Origin: Alicyclobacillus acidiphilus NBRC 100859
GTDB lineage: Bacteria; Bacillota; Bacilli; Alicyclobacillales; Alicyclobacillaceae
NCBI RefSeq assembly: GCF_001544355.1
Contig: NZ_BCQI01000024.1
Coordinates: 1-43,177, forward strand
Length of the DNA: 43,177 nucleotides
Direction: 5' to 3'
Shown here in pieces: positions 4,279-26,734 of the stretch; position 1 is the first letter of the stretch, and each line of letters opens with the position of its first letter. The notes under the pieces are model-generated. The model did no database searches. It saw nothing but the letters and a program-made list of their open reading frames with translations, and was not told the DNA's origin. A program made the translations under genes and the position numbers.

Positions 4279-6435
4279 TTACCGCCCATGGCGGCCTCGT
4301 CCCCATCCCGCTCCACCGTGGCCAAACCACGGACCGTTCCACGGCACGGGTGGGTTTTGCGATCCCGGTCCGTTCGCTCCGGCCTTGGAACCATGCGGTC
4401 CTCCTTGCGGACTGACTGGCGGGATCGCGGGCAGCTTCGGACTCGATGGCGGCGATGAGACCGTTCCCGTCGTGTCGGGCAGAAGCTGAAAGCTCTGCGG
4501 TTTCTCACCCCGCAACGCCATTTCCAAAACGTCGCGGAAAATCAGTTCGCAGTAGTGATTCGGTTCCGAATTCCAGTTGAGATGGTACGTCGTGCTTCGC
4601 GGATCGTCGTAGCCAATGTAGATGGAACCGACGATATTCGGCGTATAACCGTCCCACCAGGCTCGCGAGATCCAATTCGGATGAGCGCCTGACAGACCCT
4701 CGTCGAATTGCACGGTTCCTGTCTTCCCAGCTGTGTCCCAACCGGGGATTTGGGCGTCTTGACCGGTTCCGTCCTTGACGACGTCCATCATCAACCTCGT
4801 CATCGTGCTTGCCGTTTGCGCGCTCATCACTGTCTTGGAGACAGGCTTAAAACGATAGATGGTCTTCCCGTTCGCGTTCACAATCCGCGTGATCAAGTGC
4901 TCCTTGTTCTGCACACCGTGATCGTCGAATGCCTCGTAAGCCTGCGCCATCTCCCACGGCGTTACGCCTTTTTCCATGCCGCCAATGGCGATGGAGAGGT
5001 GTTGTTTGTCCCCCGCCGTGAACGAAATGCCATCGCGCTGTGCGAATTGAATCCCAGCGTTCATGCCAATTTGCTGCAACAACCACACAGAAGCGACGTT
5101 CTCCGAGTTCACCAAAGCATATTGCAGCGTTACCCAATCTGGCGCTGCGGAATCGTTCTGTGGAACGTAGCCTCCGCCAAAATCGTGCGGCGTATTGTCG
5201 AGTATCGAGGCAGGCGTGAATTTTCCGCTTTGAATCGCCGCACCATATTCCAGTACCGGTTTAATCGACGATCCCGGCTGACTATACGCATACACCCTGT
5301 CGAATCCATCTGGAGAATAGTCCGATTTTCGGCTTCCGGCAGCGCCAAGCACCCCGCCCGTCTTTGGATCCACGAAAATTGCCGCCGCGTCGACGGGCTT
5401 GCCTGCCACAGGAGCGGGAAAGGCCGAATTGTACTTGGTTCCCCAAAAGACTGCGTTGACGGCCTTCTGTACAGATGGTTGAATCGTGGTGTAAATCTTC
5501 AGGCCGCCTTGAAATAATGTTTGGCGGGAAAATCCCAGGTTGGCGTACGAGTCCAACAAAAAATTGGTGAACAACGGATTCTTATCCCAAACATTATCGG
5601 ACAAGCTATGATACTTCACACCAAGCGGCGCTTTCTGCGCAGTCCGCGCCTGGGCTTCGGATATGTATCCGTACTTCGCCATCGCCTCGAGCACCTGGTT
5701 GCGTCTCGCGAGAGCTTCCTTGGGATGCCGAATGGGATCGTACTCACTCGGCGCTTGCGGCAATCCGGCCAGCAATGCGGCCTGCGTCAGGCTGAGCGTC
5801 TGCCCCTTCGCCAAATTGACGCCAAAATACCGTTCGGCTGCCTGTTCGACGCCGACGCAGTTCTCGCCTAGGAAAACCCGGTTCAAATACTGAGTCAGAA
5901 TCTCCTGTTTGGTGAAATCGCGATCGATCTGCAGACCATAGATGATTTCCTTGATCTTGTATTTGAACGTCTTATCGTCCGTCAGGTAGACCATCTTCGC
6001 CAATTGTTCTTCAATCGTGCTGGCGCCTTCGGATCGGCTGTTCGTCAACAAATCGTGCCAAGTCGCACGAGCGATTCCCCGAATATCCAGCCCCTTGCGC
6101 GTCCAGAATGTGTGGTCCTCGATGGCGACAACCGCGTTCTGCAAATCTTTAGGAATGTGTTGGTATTTGACCTGATTGGGGCCTCCGACTGGCGGAATCC
6201 GCATGTAGACCGAGCCGTCTCCCGCGTAGATCACGGTAGCCTGAGCCTCTTTGGGCTGCTTTTCCAAAGGAGCCGGGTTGAACGTCGCAGCCGTCAACAT
6301 CCATTTGCGTGCGCCGTACAGCACCGCCGACAGGATCGCCGCGTATACCAGCAACCCACCTGTCCCATACAGGATCCAGGTTCTTCGCCGACGTCGGCGC
6401 TCTTCAGGCTTCCGATCTCGATGATCAGATTTCAC
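4279..6435 (-). CDS. Class A penicillin-binding protein (glycosyltransferase/transpeptidase)
   Basis: A bifunctional enzyme of about 718 residues that polymerises lipid II and cross-links peptidoglycan outside the membrane. After a basic cytoplasmic N-terminus there is one membrane anchor (about residues 20-42). A GT51 domain follows with EDHTFW (catalytic Glu), GASTIEEQL and KYKIKEI motifs, then a transpeptidase domain with SSIK (active Ser in QPGSSIKP), SEN and KTGT. The C-terminal 70 residues are a Pro/Gly-rich tail. GTG at 6435 follows a good AGGTGA site; an ATG nine codons upstream (6462) has a weaker site. The gene converges on the kinase gene with 45 bases between stop codons. Adjacency to the envelope-type two-component system fits a cell-wall module but does not prove regulation. 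Confidence 0.92.
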   Translation of the reverse strand: MKSDHRDRKPEERRRRRRTWILYGTGGLLVYAAILSAVLYGARKWMLTAATFNPAPLEKQPKEAQATVIYAGDGSVYMRIPPVGGPNQVKYQHIPKDLQNAVVAIEDHTFWTRKGLDIRGIARATWHDLLTNSRSEGASTIEEQLAKMVYLTDDKTFKYKIKEIIYGLQIDRDFTKQEILTQYLNRVFLGENCVGVEQAAERYFGVNLAKGQTLSLTQAALLAGLPQAPSEYDPIRHPKEALARRNQVLEAMAKYGYISEAQARTAQKAPLGVKYHSLSDNVWDKNPLFTNFLLDSYANLGFSRQTLFQGGLKIYTTIQPSVQKAVNAVFWGTKYNSAFPAPVAGKPVDAAAIFVDPKTGGVLGAAGSRKSDYSPDGFDRVYAYSQPGSSIKPVLEYGAAIQSGKFTPASILDNTPHDFGGGYVPQNDSAAPDWVTLQYALVNSENVASVWLLQQIGMNAGIQFAQRDGISFTAGDKQHLSIAIGGMEKGVTPWEMAQAYEAFDDHGVQNKEHLITRIVNANGKTIYRFKPVSKTVMSAQTASTMTRLMMDVVKDGTGQDAQIPGWDTAGKTGTVQFDEGLSGAHPNWISRAWWDGYTPNIVGSIYIGYDDPRSTTYHLNWNSEPNHYCELIFRDVLEMALRGEKPQSFQLLPDTTGTVSSPPSSPKLPAIPPVSPQGGPHGSKAGANGPGSQNPPVPWNGPWFGHGGAGWGRGRHGR

Positions 6436-6585
6436 GATGGTCACCTCGCTGAGTAACTTCATACAGCCCTGTGACCGTCAGTGATCACATGTACTCGATT
6501 CCATCCCTATATACTCTTCGATACGCGTACTTACCTTTTGACCACGAACCATGCGCGCTGGGATGCGACCATGGAACACACGTGA

Positions 6586-6633
6586 AAAAGGACTGTTCTC
6601 AAATCCAACGACCTGGACTTGGAACAGCCCTTG
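6586..6633 (-). terminator. Rho-independent terminator of the first ABC operon
   Basis: On the minus strand AAGGGCTGTTC pairs with GAACAGTCCTT (one mismatch). An inner stem CAAGTCC / GGATTTG extends it, and it is followed by a run of T. It lies about 255 bases after the last permease gene and before the penicillin-binding protein gene. Confidence 0.7.
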
Positions 6634-6715
6634 ATATGACAAAGTCTTGACAAAATAGAAACCGTGCCCGCCGCACGTCGACTACATGGGTATTTAAGTG
6701 GTGTGTGGTAGACTC

Positions 6716-6741
6716 GCCGCAAGCCCTGCCTCTCTTGCGGC
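6716..6741. other. Perfect 8-bp inverted repeat without a T run
   Basis: GCCGCAAG and CTTGCGGC are separated by ten bases in the 3' untranslated region of the first ABC operon. No T-rich tail follows on either strand, so it may be an mRNA-stabilising hairpin rather than a terminator. Nothing else is recognisable between 6640 and 6887. Confidence 0.5.
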
Positions 6742-6887
6742 CATGTGGCTCCAATGACCACGCCTGATGCAATCTATATCCTGCCGCGTTGAATACTTTG
6801 CAATGGGACTACAACCAGCGCACAATTCACGAAATACCAGCTTTATCACTTCCATTATACACAAATTTGGGGCGCCTGTCTTCTTCG

Positions 6888-7769
6888 CTATTTGCCAAAA
6901 CCGGCAAACATGCCGCGGAGAAGCCAGCGCCGGCCAAAGATATAGGCCAAGATGAGCGGCAAAGCGGACAGGATGACCGCGGCCATCGTCACCGGCACGT
7001 TCATCGTATACTGCCCTTGAAAGCTCACGATCGCCAGCGGCATGACACGGGAATTCGTGCTTTCTGTGAGCACGAGCGGAAACAGAAAGTTGTTCCACGC
7101 TTGAACAAAATCGTAGATAGAGACCGAGACGAGCGCTGGCGTAGCAAGCGGCAGCACGAGATGGCGGAGTATGCGAAAATCGCTGGCGCCATCCATACCC
7201 ATGGATTCGTAGAGCTCGTTCGGAATATCCCGGACGAAGTTAACCAGAATCAGCACTGTGAGCGGTAGGCCAAACGCCACAGAAGGCAAGATAATACCAA
7301 TCAGTTTGTCGTACAGCCCCATGTCCGTGATGAGAATGTAGATGGGGATGATGGCCGCCTGAATGGGCAACGCCAATCCCACCAAAAACACGTTGAAAAT
7401 CACTCGGACTGCCCGATTTCGGCTGCGCACGACGACGTAAGCGCAGAGAATGGAGCATCCCACAATCAGGATAACCGAACAAAGCGACACGATGATACTG
7501 TTGAGAAAGAAGTGGGCAAATCCCGCCTGTACCACCGTGGCATAATTCTCCAGCGTCGGGTGCAAGGAAGGCAGCCAGGGAATGCCAAGCAAATATCCTT
7601 GTTCCGAGCGCAAACTGGTCATCAGCATGTACAGCACCGGATAGAAAGCGATGATCAACCAGATGAACCCCAGAAAGGTGAACAATGCGTTGTACCACGT
7701 CGGCCCGCGGCGAAATCGCGAGTTCACCGCAGGGGCAGTGTCCAAGTTGGCGGCATTTGTCGCAAGCAT
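6888..7769 (-). CDS. Carbohydrate ABC transporter permease, MalG type
   Basis: A 293-residue inner-membrane subunit with six predicted membrane segments. The ATPase-contact (EAA) loop reads NELYESMGMDGAS, typical of the MalG/CUT1 family. It should form the channel with the permease encoded upstream and take substrate from the lipoprotein encoded at 8727. The ATG at 7769 overlaps the stop codon of the upstream permease (TGATG) and follows GGAGGG, so the two are translationally coupled; the open frame extends further upstream without a start site. No ATPase gene is nearby. Substrate cannot be told from sequence; an oligosaccharide is likely for this family. Confidence 0.92.
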   Translation of the reverse strand: MLATNAANLDTAPAVNSRFRRGPTWYNALFTFLGFIWLIIAFYPVLYMLMTSLRSEQGYLLGIPWLPSLHPTLENYATVVQAGFAHFFLNSIIVSLCSVILIVGCSILCAYVVVRSRNRAVRVIFNVFLVGLALPIQAAIIPIYILITDMGLYDKLIGIILPSVAFGLPLTVLILVNFVRDIPNELYESMGMDGASDFRILRHLVLPLATPALVSVSIYDFVQAWNNFLFPLVLTESTNSRVMPLAIVSFQGQYTMNVPVTMAAVILSALPLILAYIFGRRWLLRGMFAGFGK

Positions 7770-8659
7770 CACATACCCTCCAATTGACTCTCCATGCGAT
7801 TGAAACCGGTAAAGCGCAACGTCAGAATGGACAAAACGACGCCAGCCACGGCCAAAATCACGGCGAGCACGCTTCCGTATCCAATGTTCTGGTTGGAAAA
7901 TGCCTGTTTGTACATATCCATGGCGAGCACCGTCGTCGAAGTTCCAGGTCCACCGTCGGTGAGAACGTAAATTAAATCGAAATACGTCAGCGATCCTGTA
8001 AGAATTAAGACCGACGAGGTAACCACGGTATATTTCAATTGAGGTATGGTGATGTGGAAAAACGAACTCCAAGGTCCGGCCCCATCGATCTTCGCGGCCT
8101 CGTACAAGGAATCCGGAATTTGTTTAGCACCGCTCTGATACAGGAGCGAATGGAATGGAATGAACTGCCATGCGATGATCATGCTGACGACGAGCATCGC
8201 GATATGCGTGTTGCCAAGCCAGTTTTGTTCGCCGTTGCCAATGCCCACAGCCTTCAACAGCGCATCGACCAATCCGAAGTTGGGATTGAGAATATACGAC
8301 CATGTGACGCCAATCGCTACAGAGGAAAAGAGCAGTGGCACGAAGTAAAACACGCCAAACACAGCCCGATGCTTCTGGCGGCCAGCCAGAAAGACGCCTA
8401 TCAACAGGCTGATGGGGGTCTGAAAGACCCAAGAGAGAACCATCAGCTCCACCGTCAACCTGAGCGACATCAAGGCCTCGCCATCAGAAAACAGTTCCGC
8501 CCAGTTTTGTCCGCCTACCCATTTGGCTATCCCGATGCCGTTCCAATTGAGCCCACTGTAGTACACCGCGACAATCATCGGGAACAATGCGAAGACTGCG
8601 AAAAAGAGAACAGCTGGCGCGACCATGACCCAACGTTGCCAATTCATGCCTGTTCCCAT
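7769..8659 (-). CDS. Carbohydrate ABC transporter permease, MalF type
   Basis: A 296-residue membrane subunit with six predicted membrane segments and an EAA loop (DSLYEAAKIDGAGPW). The GG before the ATP-contact loop and the segment LTDGGPGTSTTV are characteristic of MalF/UgpA-like permeases. It pairs with the permease encoded immediately downstream. I chose the ATG at 8659, eleven bases after GGAGG; a TTG six codons earlier overlaps that ribosome binding site and is less likely. It follows the binding-protein gene after a gap of 67 bases that contains a strong hairpin. Confidence 0.92.
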   Translation of the reverse strand: MGTGMNWQRWVMVAPAVLFFAVFALFPMIVAVYYSGLNWNGIGIAKWVGGQNWAELFSDGEALMSLRLTVELMVLSWVFQTPISLLIGVFLAGRQKHRAVFGVFYFVPLLFSSVAIGVTWSYILNPNFGLVDALLKAVGIGNGEQNWLGNTHIAMLVVSMIIAWQFIPFHSLLYQSGAKQIPDSLYEAAKIDGAGPWSSFFHITIPQLKYTVVTSSVLILTGSLTYFDLIYVLTDGGPGTSTTVLAMDMYKQAFSNQNIGYGSVLAVILAVAGVVLSILTLRFTGFNRMESQLEGM

Positions 8660-8688
8660 ACCTTCACGCTCCTCCAAACGATGTTTGG

Positions 8689-8717
8689 CTGGGCGCCCCC
8701 AAACACGAGGCGCCCAG
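8689..8717 (-). other. Intercistronic hairpin between binding protein and permease genes
   Basis: CTGGGCGCC and GGCGCCCAG form a perfect 9-base stem with an 11-base loop, starting ten bases after the binding-protein stop codon. There is no T run. Such stems often protect the binding-protein part of the mRNA or limit read-through, giving more binding protein than permease; that role is inferred. Confidence 0.7.
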
Positions 8718-8726
8718 ACGCGAAAC

Positions 8727-10076
8727 TCAGGACATGTGTTTATTCATGTCAGCCGATAGCTGCTGCGGCGTCATTTGGTTGAGGAACAGCTTGCTCAGAT
8801 CCGTCAACAGCTCCTGCGCCTCAGCCGGAGGCAGCGCCTGATCCCAGGACGCTTGGAAGTTCGGAGCGTTCTTGACCATATTGTAGGTGAACGACAAGTA
8901 GTCGCCGTAGGTCGCTTTCTTCAATTCCGAATCGATGCCTTTGACCGGTGGGACGTCACCGATGCTAATCCAGTCCTTGACGTTTTGCGGGCTCAGCACG
9001 GCGTCTTTCAAGAATGTCACATCCGCCTGCTTATTCTTCGATACACTGGAAATCGAATAGTAGTTCGACGGGTTTCCGGCGATATCGTTGACATTGCCTT
9101 TGCCACCCTGAACCTTCGGGAACGCGAACCAGCCCAAGTTTCCTTGCTGAATGAAACTCTTGTCATCCGAAAGCACGGACGCGAAGCCCCAACTGCCCAT
9201 CAGCCACATCGCGGCTTTTCCTGTGTACAGCAGCGCAGCGTCCTCGCCTTCGTTCGAGCTCACGGAACTAAATCCCGGCTCAAATGCGCCTGCGTTGACC
9301 AACTGCTGAATCATCGTGTTGGCTTTGATAAACGCAGGATTCGACCACGCGTTTTTCTTACCGGCGATGACGTTGTCAAACACCTGCGGCCCGCCGATCC
9401 GATCGACCAAATATTCTTCATACATCAGATCTGGCCATTCGTCCTTGCCGCCCAACGAAATGGGCGTGATGTTGTGACTCTTGAAGATCTTGACGTCGGC
9501 CAGCAACTGGGTCCAAGTCTTCGGCGGCGTAACATGGTACTGCTTGAACACCTGCTTGTTATAGAACATCATGACCGGCTGCACGCCATCGTTGGGAACG
9601 CCATAAATCTTCCCGCCGATTGTAACCGGTTTCATAACAGACGGAAGAAAACGGTTTTTCCAAGCCGGATCGGCATTCAGCGCAGAAGTCAAATTGTACA
9701 CGTCTCCTGCTTTGACATACGCCGCCAATGTGCCGCCGCCCCAACCAGTGAAGATATCCGGCGGATTGTGCGCCCCCATGGCGATTTGGATTTTTTGCTT
9801 ATACGGATCGTTCTCGAAGAATTGCACCTGCGAGAGAATGTTCGGATGCGTTTTGTTGAAATTATTGGACATATTTATAACCACTTGTTGCGACGCGCCC
9901 GTCTGAATATCCCAGATGGTGATCTTTTGCTGAGGCGATGAACTCGCCGCACCCTGCTCGTCAACATTGGCATTGTTTGCCGATCCCGTCTGCGCCGTCG
10001 CGCATCCAGCCAGCAAAGCGCCTGTGAGAACTACCGCACTCGCCCCTGTCATCCACTGAATTGTTGACTTTTTCAC
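8727..10076 (-). CDS. Sugar-binding lipoprotein of an ABC importer
   Basis: A 449-residue extracellular solute-binding protein (family 1). The N-terminus is a lipoprotein signal with a lipobox (ALLAGC; Cys at about residue 25), so the mature protein is lipid-anchored outside the membrane. A short polar linker precedes the binding domain, which begins ITIWDIQTGAS. Features such as DIFTGWGGGTL, GVPNDGVQPVMMFYNK and MWLMGSWGFASVL are typical of CUT1 oligosaccharide binders. The GTG start follows GGGGG by seven bases. It is the first gene of an operon with two permeases. The ligand is not predictable; some relatives bind xylo-oligosaccharides, but I have no direct evidence for that. Confidence 0.93.
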   Translation of the reverse strand: MKKSTIQWMTGASAVVLTGALLAGCATAQTGSANNANVDEQGAASSSPQQKITIWDIQTGASQQVVINMSNNFNKTHPNILSQVQFFENDPYKQKIQIAMGAHNPPDIFTGWGGGTLAAYVKAGDVYNLTSALNADPAWKNRFLPSVMKPVTIGGKIYGVPNDGVQPVMMFYNKQVFKQYHVTPPKTWTQLLADVKIFKSHNITPISLGGKDEWPDLMYEEYLVDRIGGPQVFDNVIAGKKNAWSNPAFIKANTMIQQLVNAGAFEPGFSSVSSNEGEDAALLYTGKAAMWLMGSWGFASVLSDDKSFIQQGNLGWFAFPKVQGGKGNVNDIAGNPSNYYSISSVSKNKQADVTFLKDAVLSPQNVKDWISIGDVPPVKGIDSELKKATYGDYLSFTYNMVKNAPNFQASWDQALPPAEAQELLTDLSKLFLNQMTPQQLSADMNKHMS

Positions 10077-10168
10077 CTTGCATCCCCCTTATTATTAATT
10101 TGAATGTTAAACAAAGATATTGAGTTATTCGTAGATGGCACACAAAATCCTGCGGGTACTTCATGGTT

Positions 10169-10196
10169 TTCATATGCAAAAAGTTGTCTTTATCAA
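10169..10196 (-). promoter_or_regulatory. Possible promoter of the first ABC operon
   Basis: On the minus strand TTGATA (10196-10191) and TATGAA (10174-10169) are separated by 16 bases, about 95 bases before the GTG start. The match is moderate and no operator is evident. Confidence 0.3.
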
Positions 10197-10313
10197 TATT
10201 TTTCGCACCTTGGTACGGCAACCGGACTTTGGCGTCCTGTGAAGCCGTATCCACTTTGTTTATTCAATGGATTTTGAAGACTGGTGGAGGTTCAGTGCTG
10301 ATTGGAGGATGGC

Positions 10314-22310: not shown

Positions 22311-22827
22311 CACAATTCGTCGTCTATCTGCAGATGGTTGAGAATCTTCCCATGCGCATACATGGTGCAATTCGATCCCCCAGACAGGCAAGCAGCCGTC
22401 ACCGCGCCATATTTTCGCATGAGACGGACGAGATCCTGTTGCGAAGGCCCGATATCATGGCTGCCAGTCGCGAAGCGTCCGTCCGTTTCGATAAATATCA
22501 GAGTCCCAATTGCGCTTTGACCGATGACGGTTGACGCGTTTCAACCGATATTCGAGGTTGGCGCGACGGACTCGTTTCCGACGACCAACCTTCCCTGTTT
22601 GGTCAGTCCGATCACAGTACGCTCATTCGCCGAAAGGTCTTCCCACGAACCGTTTGCGACGACGTTACCGCGATGCATGGTGATCCCCAAGGGTTCATCA
22701 TATGCTGAACTATCTGAATCGCCAGCATTTACCGTCGCAATCGCGTGATATTCCTCGCAATGTCACTTACAGTTTGCCCTTCCTGGCCGAGCGTGGACGC
22801 GAGACCAACCTGCAACTGTTCGGTGCG
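22311..22827 (-). pseudogene. Remnant of a phosphodiester glycosidase (NAGPA-like) domain
   Basis: Translated on the minus strand, this stretch reads as the NAGPA/exopolysaccharide-type phosphodiester glycosidase domain, in pieces. The first piece follows the TAA of the anti-sigma frame and reads LQVGLASTLGQEGQTVSDIA. A frameshift near 22750 leads to YHAIATVNAGD, PLGITMHRGNVVANGSWED and GLTKQGRLVVGN. An in-frame TGA near 22545 is followed in the same frame by GTLIFIETDGRFATGS, LVRLMRKYGAVTAA and CLSGGSNCTMYAHGKILN, stopping at 22311. Order and spacing match the family, where the last motif is usually LDGGGSSTM. One premature stop, one frameshift and the preceding TAA show it is broken. It was probably joined to the zinc-finger/membrane part upstream. 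Confidence 0.75.
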
Positions 22828-23145
22828 TTACGGTTGATTGGCGCAAGTGGTACACGATAGAGTTGTGATGGCCTCTGACATACATGCCCCCACAACGACG
22901 CAAGCTGTGGCTGCCAACCCGGCAGCAAATGTGGAGAATTTGGACTGCCACGTGCTCGCACTTGTGGATAATCGCGCCCGCTGCATCTCACGTCGGTTCG
23001 GCAACATCTGGCGAGTTGGATTCAGCACCGCCTTTTGCCCGTAGTACGCGGTGACAGCACCAACCATGTCCGCTTCAGCGCGACAAACCGGGCACGTCAT
23101 GACATGTTGCTCGACATCGAGATCGATCTCCTCACCTGTCCACAC
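22828..23145 (-). CDS. Zinc-finger anti-sigma factor fragment
   Basis: A 105-residue frame with an anti-sigma zinc-finger core (EEIDLDVEQHVMTCPVC, giving H-x3-C-x2-C) and one membrane segment (about residues 72-90). It follows the ECF sigma gene and overlaps its end. The GTG start has no good ribosome binding site. A strong GGGAGGGG with an ATG at 23174 lies just upstream but is in the sigma frame, where it encodes MVCDRVIDAL, the expected start of such a protein. A -1 shift at GCTTTG (about 23148) would join the two parts into a normal anti-sigma N-terminus. I therefore think this gene is frameshifted, or uses programmed frameshifting, and may be non-functional. Confidence 0.5.
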   Translation of the reverse strand: MWTGEEIDLDVEQHVMTCPVCRAEADMVGAVTAYYGQKAVLNPTRQMLPNRREMQRARLSTSASTWQSKFSTFAAGLAATACVVVGACMSEAITTLSCTTCANQP

Positions 23146-23672
23146 AAAGCATCGATTACCCTATCGCAAACCATCGAACATCCCCTCCCGAATCGACTCG
23201 AACGTTGCAGTTTTTCGCGTATCCGAAACAATCTTGTCTTGACGTTCGAGATCGTTAGATTCATCGCCTCGGCGATTTCCCGGACGGTCAGTTCGGAGTG
23301 AAATCGCAAGGTGAGGAGCATTCTGCTTTCCGGGTCCAAGGATTCTAAAATCTGTTCCAAAGTCATTCTGGCAATCGCGGCCGATTCAAACAATTGACCG
23401 ACAGCGACTGGCTCCAGCAGGACTTGCGAGGATGCGGTCACGCGCTTTCGATACATGTCACGAAACGTGTTGACCACAAGCGCGTAAACCCAACTGTGAA
23501 ATGAACTATCTTCGCGGTAGGTCGAGAGCTTGCTGCAAATCTTGTAAAGCACTTCTTGGGTGATATCCTCGGCATCCTGTTGATGCCTGGCGAACTGATA
23601 CGCAAGTCGATAGACAAGTGGTTGAATTACCTCAAGCAGTCCGCGTAGGCGGGAGGGGGCTCCATCATCCAT
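23097..23672 (-). CDS. ECF-type RNA polymerase sigma factor
   Basis: A 191-residue extracytoplasmic-function sigma factor. Region 2 contains YQFARHQQDAEDITQEVLYK and SFHSWVYALVVNTFRDMYRK; region 4 contains LLTLRFHSELTVREIAEAMN and SNVKTRLFRIREKL. The ATG at 23672 overlaps the stop codon of the FeoB-like gene (TGATG), so it is co-translated with a metal transporter, which is unusual. A GTG one codon earlier is the alternative. The last 26 residues overlap the start of the anti-sigma locus and may be extended by the frameshift there. If the anti-sigma protein is lost, this factor may be constitutively active or controlled only through transcription of the operon. Confidence 0.88.
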   Translation of the reverse strand: MDDGAPSRLRGLLEVIQPLVYRLAYQFARHQQDAEDITQEVLYKICSKLSTYREDSSFHSWVYALVVNTFRDMYRKRVTASSQVLLEPVAVGQLFESAAIARMTLEQILESLDPESRMLLTLRFHSELTVREIAEAMNLTISNVKTRLFRIREKLQRSSRFGRGCSMVCDRVIDALCGQVRRSISMSSNMS

Positions 23673-25315
23673 CACACAATGCTATGCAGGAGCAGTGGCG
23701 TCCAGGCCAGCGCGAGACTGCTCACGACGGAAGTCGCCGCTTGCCTTCCTGCCATGCGCAGGGCATACCGCCAAGAGAATTCTCTACCAATAGTCCACAA
23801 CGTAACCATGCACGCCGACAATGTCGAGGCGAGATAGACAACGACAAACAACTGGCTAATCGAGAGCGAATCCAGTACATCTGTCTGATTGAGCACCAAC
23901 ATGCCATCTTTGCGGATGGTGGAAAAGATCACTGCTGGCGCTACGGAAGAAGGTAAATGAAACAGGATGAAGACAGGCGACGTCACGTGCGCAACCCAAT
24001 TGACGACGTGAAAATAGTCCAGCAGCGCTGCAACAAAGCATATGATGACAAATGTTGGCATGGCTTGCAGCAGAAATTGCTTGACGACCGAGCGCACGCG
24101 AAAGCCAATCCCTTTCCAAGTTGGTTGCTGCAGGAAGGTCCGCCGCCTTTCCGCAAGCGGTGTCGCGCTGCGGTTGAAAATGCGCGTATGAATGGCTCCT
24201 ACAAGAAAGACCACGCTGATATATGGGAGAAACAATAGCGGGTGGTGTGCCGAACTGAAGAGCGAGAGCGACGCACCAATGGTGTAACTGCAAGCCGATC
24301 CAAACGCGATAAGGGACACACACTGCGTGCGCGTGCACTGACCGCAAGCACGGCTTTGCAGCACACCGACGACATTGCAGCCAAAACCGGTCAACACAGG
24401 GATCAAGTCGCGGCCCTCGAGTCCAATTTTCTGGAGCCACGGATCGAGCGAATCCGCAATTCGATCTTTGAGCCCGCTCTCTTCGGTGACGGCAACGGTG
24501 ACTCCAATCAACAAGACAACCGGGAACGCCCAAAGGAATGAGTACGGCCCCAGGGTCAGCACGCCGTAGTCGCCAACCGTGAGGGCCCGGAGCCATCCGG
24601 GAGCCGTCTGAAAGGCATGACGAAGCGGATCGAGAACAAATGCATCCAAATACGGCTGAGTGACGTTCGCAAGCAGATAGGCGGCCAAAACAGGCAATCC
24701 AAACAGCAAGACAATGAAAAGCAGCGACACCCACGGGCCAATCCGATTCAGATCAAAAATGGTAGCCGGAGGTTCAATTTCGGATAGTTCCAAGTCGAGC
24801 AGTTCGTGAAACGGTCGACTTGGCCGCTTCGCCTTGCGGACAGACGCCACAGCCGTCTCCAGTTGGTTGCCCGCGAACGTTCGAGCGTTGACGGAGAGAA
24901 AGGAAATACCGTAGACGCTGCAAAATCGCTCAATGGCCTCCCGAATCTGAAACGGCGTTTTGTCCTCAAAGGTGAAAATGACAGCCACTCGATTCTCCAG
25001 GTGGCCCACGATCCGTGAAAGCAGGTTTAACTCCGAGACCGCATGCGTCCCCCGGACAACGAAAACAATGACATCCCCGCGCTCGACTTCATCGAGCGCC
25101 ATTGCTGTCGTGCGACTATCCGCCTGTTGGCGGATCCCCGGTGTGTCGACCAATACAATGTTTGTTCCATGAATGCTCCCGCGCCGACAAACGACTGTGG
25201 AGCCGCGAAAATTGGTTTCTTCACCCGTGTGGTAATGCGTCAATTTTGCAAACACGGTCGATTTTCCCGCCGACTCCATCCCCACCAGAACTGCTGTCAA
25301 CTCCGCCTCTAGCAC
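23672..25315 (-). CDS. FeoB-like GTPase metal transporter
   Basis: A 547-residue protein with an N-terminal G domain (residues about 1-165) and about eight to ten membrane segments. The P loop is GMESAGKST and the switch motif DTPGIRQQ; a clear NKxD box is missing (FTFEDKTP stands there). The gate region reads LTGFGCNVVGVLQSRACGQC, as in FeoB (GFGCNVPAIMATR), but has extra cysteines (CGQCTRTQC). It is shorter than canonical FeoB, which has about 650-770 residues. The GTG start overlaps the end of the flavoprotein gene by seven bases. With a Zur-like box upstream, it may carry zinc or another divalent metal rather than ferrous iron; this is inference. Confidence 0.85.
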   Translation of the reverse strand: MLEAELTAVLVGMESAGKSTVFAKLTHYHTGEETNFRGSTVVCRRGSIHGTNIVLVDTPGIRQQADSRTTAMALDEVERGDVIVFVVRGTHAVSELNLLSRIVGHLENRVAVIFTFEDKTPFQIREAIERFCSVYGISFLSVNARTFAGNQLETAVASVRKAKRPSRPFHELLDLELSEIEPPATIFDLNRIGPWVSLLFIVLLFGLPVLAAYLLANVTQPYLDAFVLDPLRHAFQTAPGWLRALTVGDYGVLTLGPYSFLWAFPVVLLIGVTVAVTEESGLKDRIADSLDPWLQKIGLEGRDLIPVLTGFGCNVVGVLQSRACGQCTRTQCVSLIAFGSACSYTIGASLSLFSSAHHPLLFLPYISVVFLVGAIHTRIFNRSATPLAERRRTFLQQPTWKGIGFRVRSVVKQFLLQAMPTFVIICFVAALLDYFHVVNWVAHVTSPVFILFHLPSSVAPAVIFSTIRKDGMLVLNQTDVLDSLSISQLFVVVYLASTLSACMVTLWTIGREFSWRYALRMAGRQAATSVVSSLALAWTPLLLHSIV

Positions 25316-26505
25316 TCACATTTCACCTCGCAGCAACTCAGATCGTCCAGATACATGTTGTTTGCCCGATAGTATTCAATCACCGCGTCGTTTATCGAAA
25401 CTCCAAGACGGTGCGCGATTTCTTCGGCGATCACGGCGAACCGCTGCCGAAATTTATAGATAAAGCATAGGATAACATCGCCATGTCGAACGTTTGGCCC
25501 GACCACGAACAGCCCTTCGCTCTTCGTCGATTCATCTTTCAGGCTCAAATCAACCGATCCGTCGCTCAGCCAATCAAAATGTTCCGCAATCACAGACAAT
25601 CCTCCAGCGAATCCAGTCGCGCAAATCGGCCTGGTTGGCTGAAGCAGCACCTCACCGTTGGCCAAGTGAACGACATATCCGTCCGTATGTTTCTCGACGC
25701 GCACAACGGAACAGTTCGCCGTGATCGACAAACGTCCGGTTTGCATTACTTCCTCCATCCTTTGGTATGTAAATGGGGACAACGTGAGGCTGGGGTCGAC
25801 CGCATCGTCGTCTTCAGCCAGTTGATTCTTGCCCGCTGTGACGATCTTCACCTGCTTACCCATGCAAACCAACTGGTACGCCGCGTCCATCCCGCTCTCG
25901 TTACCGCCGATCACCAGGAAAGAATCGCCCTCCAACTCCGCCCAACTGCGCACGCGGCTGCTGTGTAAACAATGTTCACCGCCCTCAAAGGAAGCGTCCT
26001 GCGGGTACTGAAATTCCCCTGCAGCCCAAACCAGGTAACGGCATCGTACAGTTCCGTTGCTCGTCTGCAGGACAAAAAACTCCCCCTGTTTCTCCACGCA
26101 GGTCACATCCGTATATTCAGCGACAGGGACCGCAAAGTGCTCAGCAATGGCTTGTAGATATTCAGCGTACTCCTCACCGGAAAGATGTTCCCTCGCGAAC
26201 GTGTAGCCCGGTGAGCTGTCTGGGACGATGGCGTTGAGATCCAATGCTCCAAAGCCCTGGCCTGGAAATGACGGCGTGATCAAGCGCATTTCCTGAGGCC
26301 ATTTTTGAAACGAGGACCCGATTGTTTCACGTTCAAGGACAACGAAGTTTCTCACATCAAGCTGGGCTAGGACAACGCCAAGTCCTATTCCAGAAGCGCC
26401 GGCGCCCACCACGGCGACATCGTACGCTTTTTGAATCGAATGCTCTGTTTGCAATTCATCCACCCTCCAGGGTTTGTCGGTGTAGCCACGGCCAATTGCA
26501 TTCAT
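25309..26505 (-). CDS. FAD/NAD(P)-binding oxidoreductase with Cys-rich C-terminus
   Basis: A 398-residue flavoprotein of the CzcO/flavin-monooxygenase-like group. The FAD fold is VAVVGAGASGIGLGV, followed by ERETIGSSFQKWP, and the NAD(P) fold is FLVIGGNESGMDAAYQL; a further FAD motif is GLFVVGPNVRHGD. The end of the protein, DLSCCEVKCEC, has four closely spaced cysteines that could bind a metal ion. The ATG at 26505 was chosen over a TTG at 26538; its ribosome binding site is weak (GGA). It overlaps the FeoB-like gene by seven bases, suggesting a metal reductase or chaperone role with that transporter. The real substrate is unknown. Confidence 0.83.
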   Translation of the reverse strand: MNAIGRGYTDKPWRVDELQTEHSIQKAYDVAVVGAGASGIGLGVVLAQLDVRNFVVLERETIGSSFQKWPQEMRLITPSFPGQGFGALDLNAIVPDSSPGYTFAREHLSGEEYAEYLQAIAEHFAVPVAEYTDVTCVEKQGEFFVLQTSNGTVRCRYLVWAAGEFQYPQDASFEGGEHCLHSSRVRSWAELEGDSFLVIGGNESGMDAAYQLVCMGKQVKIVTAGKNQLAEDDDAVDPSLTLSPFTYQRMEEVMQTGRLSITANCSVVRVEKHTDGYVVHLANGEVLLQPTRPICATGFAGGLSVIAEHFDWLSDGSVDLSLKDESTKSEGLFVVGPNVRHGDVILCFIYKFRQRFAVIAEEIAHRLGVSINDAVIEYYRANNMYLDDLSCCEVKCEC

Positions 26506-26559
26506 AGTTTTTCCAACACATCCAAAATGGACGAGCAATTGTGAACGAAAGACAACAAA

Positions 26560-26574
26560 TCGTAATACTTACGA
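26560..26574 (-). promoter_or_regulatory. Near-consensus Zur box
   Basis: TCGTAATACTTACGA matches the Bacillus Zur 7-1-7 consensus TCGTAATNATTACGA at 13 of 14 defined positions. It sits inside a 19-base sequence (26558-26576) made of perfect 8-base inverted repeats around TAC. It lies just downstream of the -10 box of the flavoprotein/FeoB-like/sigma operon, covering the probable transcription start, an ideal repressor position. Confidence 0.7.
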
Positions 26575-26580
26575 TTCATC

Positions 26581-26609
26581 ATTGTATTCCAGATTTACAC
26601 ACGTGTAAA
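26581..26609 (-). promoter_or_regulatory. Promoter of the flavoprotein/FeoB-like operon
   Basis: On the minus strand TTTACA (26609-26604) and TACAAT (26586-26581) are separated by exactly 17 bases, a good sigma-A-type match. The start codon is 76 bases downstream of the -10 box. Confidence 0.65.
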
Positions 26610-26610
26610 T
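26593..26610. promoter_or_regulatory. 8-bp inverted repeat over the -35 region
   Basis: ATTTACAC-AC-GTGTAAAT is a perfect inverted repeat that overlaps the -35 box and spacer of the operon promoter. It could be a second operator for an unidentified regulator. A degenerate Zur-like 21-mer (26607-26627) with an intact right half, TTGCGATTT, lies next to it. Confidence 0.4.
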
Positions 26611-26734
26611 AATTATTATTGCGATTTACAAGCAAGTGTTTGTGCAAGACTCTATCGGAGCAGAACAATGCAGGGAATTGGAGGGGAAACGCAACAACAG
26701 CTTGGATATCATCGGGGTGATGAAGGAACAAAGA

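Follow-up and report, generated by a model that had tools for sequence, protein, structure and literature searches.

A flavoprotein and a FeoB-like protein encoded behind a Zur box in Alicyclobacillus acidiphilus probably form a zinc-starvation module with relatives in bacteria and archaea

In a contig of Alicyclobacillus acidiphilus NBRC 100859 (NZ_BCQI01000024.1, assembly GCF_001544355.1; 43,177 nucleotides, referred to as a whole as the window), two overlapping genes on the minus strand encode a flavoprotein and a membrane protein that resembles FeoB, and both are preceded by a Zur box. These two genes probably encode a Zur-repressed zinc importer that is equipped with its own flavoenzyme. 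An initial annotation of this DNA had proposed that zinc control would point either to a FeoB-type system for zinc or to a metal switch that also produces an alternative sigma factor; the zinc half of that proposal held up and the sigma half did not. Zur control of a FeoB-type zinc system is well supported at the sequence level by a conserved box, by neighbouring zinc genes and by a separate clade of proteins with extra cysteines. No description of a Zur-regulated pair of FeoB-like protein and flavoprotein was found in the literature searched, regulon databases and subscription papers lying outside its scope.

The Zur box reads TCGTAATACTTACGA on the plus strand (26560-26574) and has one mismatch to TCGTAATNATTACGA. 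It starts 6 bases past the -10 element of a promoter, TTTACA-17-TACAAT, which matches the consensus at 10 of 12 positions, and this confirms the initial description of a 13/14 Zur box lying over the start point of a good promoter. The Zur, Fur, PerR and gammaproteobacterial patterns used in these scans are taken to be the box motifs of these regulators; the 15-base form of the Zur box was not found in print in the literature searched. Across the 3.86 Mb genome, this site is the sole match with at most one mismatch, accompanied by 15 sites with two mismatches and by no match to the backwards pattern, and the chance expectation that we estimate from base composition is about 0.6 hits with at most one mismatch per genome. 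Within the window there is one site with up to three mismatches, which is not above the level of shuffled sequence (mean 1.5). Since a single close hit per genome is not improbable, the proof of the box lies in its conservation and not in the match alone. A Zur regulon of the host genome was not recovered by pattern, since visual inspection of 14 of the 15 two-mismatch sites brought up none recognisable as lying ahead of a zinc gene. A perfect 18-bp palindrome, ATTTACAC-N2-GTGTAAAT, spans the -35 box at 26593-26610; it was rejected as a conserved element, as the corresponding sequence is not palindromic in the two same-genus orthologs.

With regard to the regulator, the host genome encodes four Fur-family proteins. 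One of them (L020), encoded divergently from znuA, shares 40% identity with the Zur found within the regulon at L057, and the gap between L020 and znuA contains only two Zur boxes, each with three mismatches. Judged by similarity and position, this protein is probably the Zur of the host genome. The pair thereby shows what marks a member of a Zur regulon, namely a conserved box at the promoter and a Zur that appears to be encoded in the same genome.

Conservation of the box was counted over 34 distinct Bacilli loci, the window included; L097 and L099, which duplicate L059 and L067, had been dropped. Of these 34 loci, 31 have a Zur box with at most two mismatches in the 3 kb before the flavoprotein gene, and 24 have one with at most one mismatch, compared with 0.5 and 0.05 loci, respectively, in dinucleotide shuffles and none for the backwards pattern. 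Boxes within 400 bp are present in 21 of the 34 loci versus 0.3 in shuffles. A Fur box with at most two mismatches is found in a single locus (L100) and a PerR box of the same quality in six, both being counts without a shuffle control. The presence of the box in front of close orthologs, which the initial annotation had put forward as a check, was borne out, as both same-genus orthologs have a one-mismatch Zur box 21 bp before the flavoprotein open reading frame (ORF), behind a like promoter that was recognised by eye. Where the box is distant, genes for a COG0523 protein, a paralogue of S14 or other zinc genes often stand between it and the pair (L053, L056, L072 and L088). Three enterobacterial loci carry a Zur-like palindrome of the GTTATGTTATAACGTAAC type at the flavoprotein start or immediately ahead of it, scored without a shuffle control and with two to three mismatches to the gammaproteobacterial Zur motif; a similar palindrome also lies between hisI and zur in L073 and L085. 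In one of the same-genus orthologs (L025, positions 6247-10297, genome G003), the operon is inactivated: a transposase ORF separates two pieces of the FeoB-like gene, and the flavoprotein sequence is divided between two frames, while the Zur box is kept.

The FeoB-like protein shares with FeoB of the Feo system (TIGR00437) a G domain, two Gate regions and the GFGCN pore motif; the window protein has both the G domain and the Gate core. TIGR00437 has hits in all 32 family members examined (best E 1.3e-36), and the window protein scores 95.6 bits, below the equivalog cutoff of 315.65 bits. The family differs from canonical FeoB in forming a separate clade, in an additional CxxCx4C signature, in its flavoprotein partner and in having a Zur box in place of a Fur box. 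The FeoA partner and the Fur box of the canonical Feo system are likewise wanting: the only FeoA-domain hit in the host genome is a 229-residue protein, which we read as a DtxR/MntR-type regulator, no stand-alone FeoA was found there, and a Fur box accompanies just one of the 34 loci. No Gate-domain hit in the host genome reads as a canonical FeoB, as judged from frame lengths.

The extra cysteines were followed in an alignment (A5) of 32 of the 44 family sequences, the window included; those left out are broken (L025 and L061), are copies or close relatives of others (L065, L067, L069, L070, L097, L099 and L100) or come from L072-L074. C324, C327 and C332 are invariant in all 32 rows, where this C-x2-C-x4-C signature follows GFGCN in 29 and GYGCN in three, and none of 61 canonical FeoB proteins has it, though all 61 have GFGCN. 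The comparison set, drawn from the 62 loci L102-L163, comprises 61 of them, which we judged to be canonical from the drop of identity in the list of the best 80; the one left out, L157, is 38% identical, is cut by the contig end and shows a canonical-type pore motif in its visible part. Cys313, Cys342, Cys426 and Cys502 are also invariant in the 32 rows. The archaeal protein, which is not among them, keeps the CxxC and lacks the third cysteine. In the predicted model (predicted local distance difference test, pLDDT, 85.6), the extra cysteines are located at the turn that connects helix 314-323 to helix 326-339.

In a tree of the 32 family cores and the 61 canonical ones, the family occupies one side of a branch with a support of 100/100. 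This branch is long, with 3.63 and 1.05 on either side of the midpoint root, and the tree program warns that long branches meet at the split, so that the placement relative to canonical FeoB is tentative, but the family itself is coherent. The tree and the signature mark the FeoB-like proteins as a new, separate clade of the FeoB superfamily. A further difference from canonical FeoB is the missing G domain of the staphylococcal members of about 450 residues; proteins of this length without a G domain are encoded in L062, L064-L070 and, from Staphylococcus, L098-L101, while L063 and L071, which belong to the same family, retain it. The 50 Foldseek matches listed are to the G domain or to small GTPases, as are the 60 of 114 PDB sequence matches listed, and there is no full-length FeoB template among these listed matches.

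The flavoprotein matches Pyr_redox_3 with an E of 6.7e-90, and its predicted model has a pLDDT of 86.1, with residues 392-398 predicted as disordered. Cys347, Cys392, Cys396 and Cys398 are invariant in 30 aligned flavoproteins, and a C-x3/4-C-x-C tail closes the protein at its very C-terminus in 42 of the 43 other loci. Its best NCBIfam model is that of YpdA/bacillithiol disulfide reductase (TIGR04018), at 72.5 bits against a cutoff of 339.9. YpdA/Bdr (PDB 7a7b) is likewise a flavin adenine dinucleotide (FAD)/NAD(P)H protein and matches the flavoprotein family profile with an E of 2e-27, and yet the flavoprotein stays far under the YpdA family cutoff. YpdA/Bdr carries a GxGPCG cysteine motif and is not known to have a CCx3CxC tail. 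PDB 3d1c matches the flavoprotein over its full length, cysteine tail included (E 9.8e-153), and by this match it is a member of the same family. Its entry name, 'flavin-containing putative monooxygenase', gives a putative function only, and the genomic context offers one to test.

The pair was found in at least 43 other loci (41 distinct) from Bacilli, Chloroflexota, Verrucomicrobiota, Enterobacterales and one haloarchaeon, and in all 43 the family flavoprotein is beside the FeoB-like gene, with an S14 gene between them in L074. The flavoprotein of L087 is spread over two ORFs. A second collection was surveyed through the best 80 of at least 593 stretches that match two patterns, so that members lacking those patterns are missed. 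Searched with the single FeoB-like protein, this collection returned no relative; an alignment search did find relatives, with at least 18 named family loci, two of them repeating other loci. They belong to Chloroflexota, Superficieibacter, Erwinia, Paenibacillus, Cohnella, Verrucomicrobium, Bacillus paralicheniformis, Bacillus sonorensis, Metabacillus, Exiguobacterium and Staphylococcus. Plasmid records add loci from Paenibacillus, Klebsiella aerogenes and the archaeon Halocatena; 581 such records match the FeoB-like protein (522 over at least 80% of the protein; 499 from Klebsiella), with ordinary FeoB proteins as the weakest matches, at around 24%.

The neighbourhood of the pair is rich in zinc genes. 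A COG0523 gene lies near 28 of the 43 family loci and near none of the 61 canonical FeoB loci searched with the same queries, and for any zinc-type gene the counts are 29 and one, respectively. These queries were taken from family loci, so that distant kinds of COG0523 may be missed; the canonical loci are shorter (mean 9.3 versus 12.0 kb), and the 43 include the duplicates L097 and L099, neither with a COG0523 hit. Other neighbours include zur, a paralogue of S14, paralogues of cysS and hisI and a dCTP deaminase-like gene. In Halocatena, a COG0523 gene adjoins the pair and an S14 gene separates its two members. A cobW search of the host genome of the window gave just two weak hits. On a Klebsiella plasmid, the pair is part of an island with the order COG0523, Fur-family gene, cysS pieces, flavoprotein, FeoB-like gene, small gene, COG0523, hisI and zur. 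A figure legend in Haas et al. (2009; PMC2770081) describes a Zur-regulated cluster on another Klebsiella plasmid, pLVPK; going by that legend, it resembles the present island, in which the pair lies among COG0523, cysS, hisI and zur. Neither 'feo' nor 'flavo' occurs in the main text of that paper.

Two further genes recur in these loci. In Paenibacillus-type loci, the pair is followed by a small DUF3024 protein (L053 5317-5718, L072 5667-6002 and L086 6667-6999; a Pfam match in L053 and L086, existing annotation in L072), which is a possible extra member of the zinc regulon. A dCTP deaminase-like gene is included in the zinc cluster of several Bacilli, in 5 of the 43 loci, for instance L056 8798-9328 (PF22769), L057 4142-4693 and L101 6020-6619, and is possibly a zinc-sparing paralogue.

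A working model can be drawn from these features. When zinc is replete, zinc-loaded Zur would occupy the box that covers the start point, thereby blocking transcription, as the position and conservation of the box suggest; under zinc shortage, the two overlapping genes would be made together. The FeoB-like protein would most likely import Zn(II) through the FeoB-type core with its invariant Cys313, Cys342 and Cys502, and the additional C-x2-C-x4-C site, which canonical FeoB does not have, would serve this import. The flavoprotein, drawing on NAD(P)H and FAD, would most likely act at the inner face of the transporter, where its flexible cysteine tail might keep the transporter thiols reduced, or take over the metal and hand it on. 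In many genomes, the recipient could be a COG0523 chaperone. We raise more tentatively, and with some doubt, the broader idea of a further class of dedicated prokaryotic zinc importers in bacteria and archaea: a channel descended from FeoB with selectivity from an added CxxC(x4C), opening or release driven by an NAD(P)H flavoenzyme, a tail that passes the metal to COG0523 and a branch in staphylococci that lost the G domain and would be controlled by the flavoenzyme rather than GTP.

Several observations weigh against a zinc importer. The metal specificity is deduced from regulation and cysteines, and a Zur-regulated protein need not carry zinc; according to Haas et al. (PMC2770081), yciC (COG0523) was itself first taken as a zinc transporter owing to its repression by Zur. 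With regard to the box, L101 has none, L062 and L093 have only boxes with three mismatches, and in L100 the Zur box is accompanied by a perfect Fur box, within a gap that adjoins a gene of the opposite direction as well. Many of the Bacilli loci come from related staphylococci, so the 34 cases are not independent. The flavoprotein of L091 has no cysteine tail. Moreover, the module is patchy: within the family, a protein search found it in 3 of 41 genomes, and within the class, an alignment search found it in 24 of 398, the host counted in both.

The substrate of canonical FeoB is Fe(II), and manganese transport has been reported for some FeoB proteins. The pair could be a Zur-controlled importer of a different ion, be it Fe(II), Mn(II) or Co(II), which would stand in for zinc or restore the balance of metals in zinc shortage, a reading with which the GFGCN pore motif common to canonical FeoB, a canonical cysteine near the place of C342 and the Fur box of L100 would agree. 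We consider it unlikely, as the extra CxxCx4C is missing from every canonical FeoB compared, the Fur box is confined to that one locus and the host genome search gave no stand-alone FeoA. It is also improbable, in our view, that the pair transports nothing and acts in zinc sparing or thiol redox chemistry, with a flavoprotein whose substrate is a metal-thiolate or a thiol of low molecular weight, and with a FeoB-like protein that anchors or senses. The YpdA model as best NCBIfam match, the loss of the G domain in the staphylococcal proteins of about 450 residues and the several neighbours that are zinc-sparing paralogues would fit such a role; yet the Gate core and pore residues are strictly conserved, as would be seen in a transporter, and the flavoprotein is far below the YpdA cutoff and has GAGASG at the place of the YpdA cysteine.

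The sigma half of the initial reading, in which zinc shortage would also yield an extracytoplasmic function (ECF) sigma factor and thereby a second gene set in this strain, seems very unlikely. The overlap of the sigma gene with the FeoB-like gene leaves no room for a terminator, and a consensus scan of that strand found no promoter-like site before the sigma gene except that of the operon. Against this, a sigma relative adjoins the pair in none of the 43 other loci (search thresholds of E <= 1e-6 to 1e-8), the closest case being an ECF gene in L054 of 29% identity that lies 2.3 kb beyond the pair, behind a gene of opposite direction. The other 40 genomes of the family contain no close orthologue, their best relatives being 31-37% identical, and the sigma switch was rejected as a conserved feature. 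The anti-sigma-like ORF after the sigma gene, a fourth ORF besides the three of the initial annotation, looks damaged: it carries the HxxxCxxC typical of anti-sigma factors that bind zinc, but its expected first part is in another frame, that of the sigma gene, and its zf-HC2 match is under the cutoff and covers only positions 23-35 of 35. This ORF is probably damaged, or else affected by a sequencing error. With no adjoining relatives elsewhere, a damaged anti-sigma ORF and a broken glycosidase gene beyond it, the ECF sigma gene is best seen as a local neighbour outside the mechanism, which in this genome may be co-transcribed with the FeoB-like gene.

The coordinates of these parts are collected in Table 1. 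The overlap of 7 bases between the flavoprotein and FeoB-like ORFs was found as first described; that between the FeoB-like and sigma genes, given as 3 bases, is instead 4 with the GTG start and 1 with the next ATG. The operon had also been drawn from 22311, a region that includes the broken NAGPA glycosidase gene and thus reaches beyond the operon.

Table 1. Parts of the locus, with positions in the window.
Feature	Position	Strand	Remarks
Flavoprotein (FAD/NAD(P)H oxidoreductase, Pyr_redox_3)	25309..26505	-	ATG start; alternative TTG at 26538
FeoB-like membrane protein, 547 residues	23672..25315	-	G domain at about residues 5-160, two Gate regions; Gate and FeoB_N matches
ECF sigma factor	23097..23675	-	Overlaps the FeoB-like gene here only; outside the conserved system
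Anti-sigma-like ORF	22828..23145	-	HxxxCxxC, one hydrophobic stretch; probably damaged
Zur box, 13/14, palindromic 7-1-7	26560..26574	-	At the likely transcription start; kept in orthologs
Sigma-A-type promoter TTTACA-17-TACAAT	26581..26609	-	Consensus scan
Flavoprotein C-terminal cysteine tail CCEVKCEC	25312..25335	-	C391, C392, C396, C398; 392-398 predicted disordered
Extra C-x2-C-x4-C signature of the FeoB-like protein	24320..24346	-	C324, C327, C332, after the GFGCN pore motif
NAGPA (PF09992) phosphodiester glycosidase remnant	22313-22762	-	Two pieces with a stop between; E 0.0019 (below cutoff) and 2.2e-13

FeoB-like proteins are labelled as iron transporters by default, and a clade under Zur control would mean that many genomes mislabel a system that is probably related to zinc. 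The pair would also give the orphan structure 3d1c a testable function, and both the selection of metals by the FeoB core and its need for a flavoenzyme become directly testable, with the staphylococcal members of about 450 residues as a natural test of core function in the absence of a G domain. Such a system would have a bearing on the zinc starvation that is imposed on bacteria by hosts and soils.

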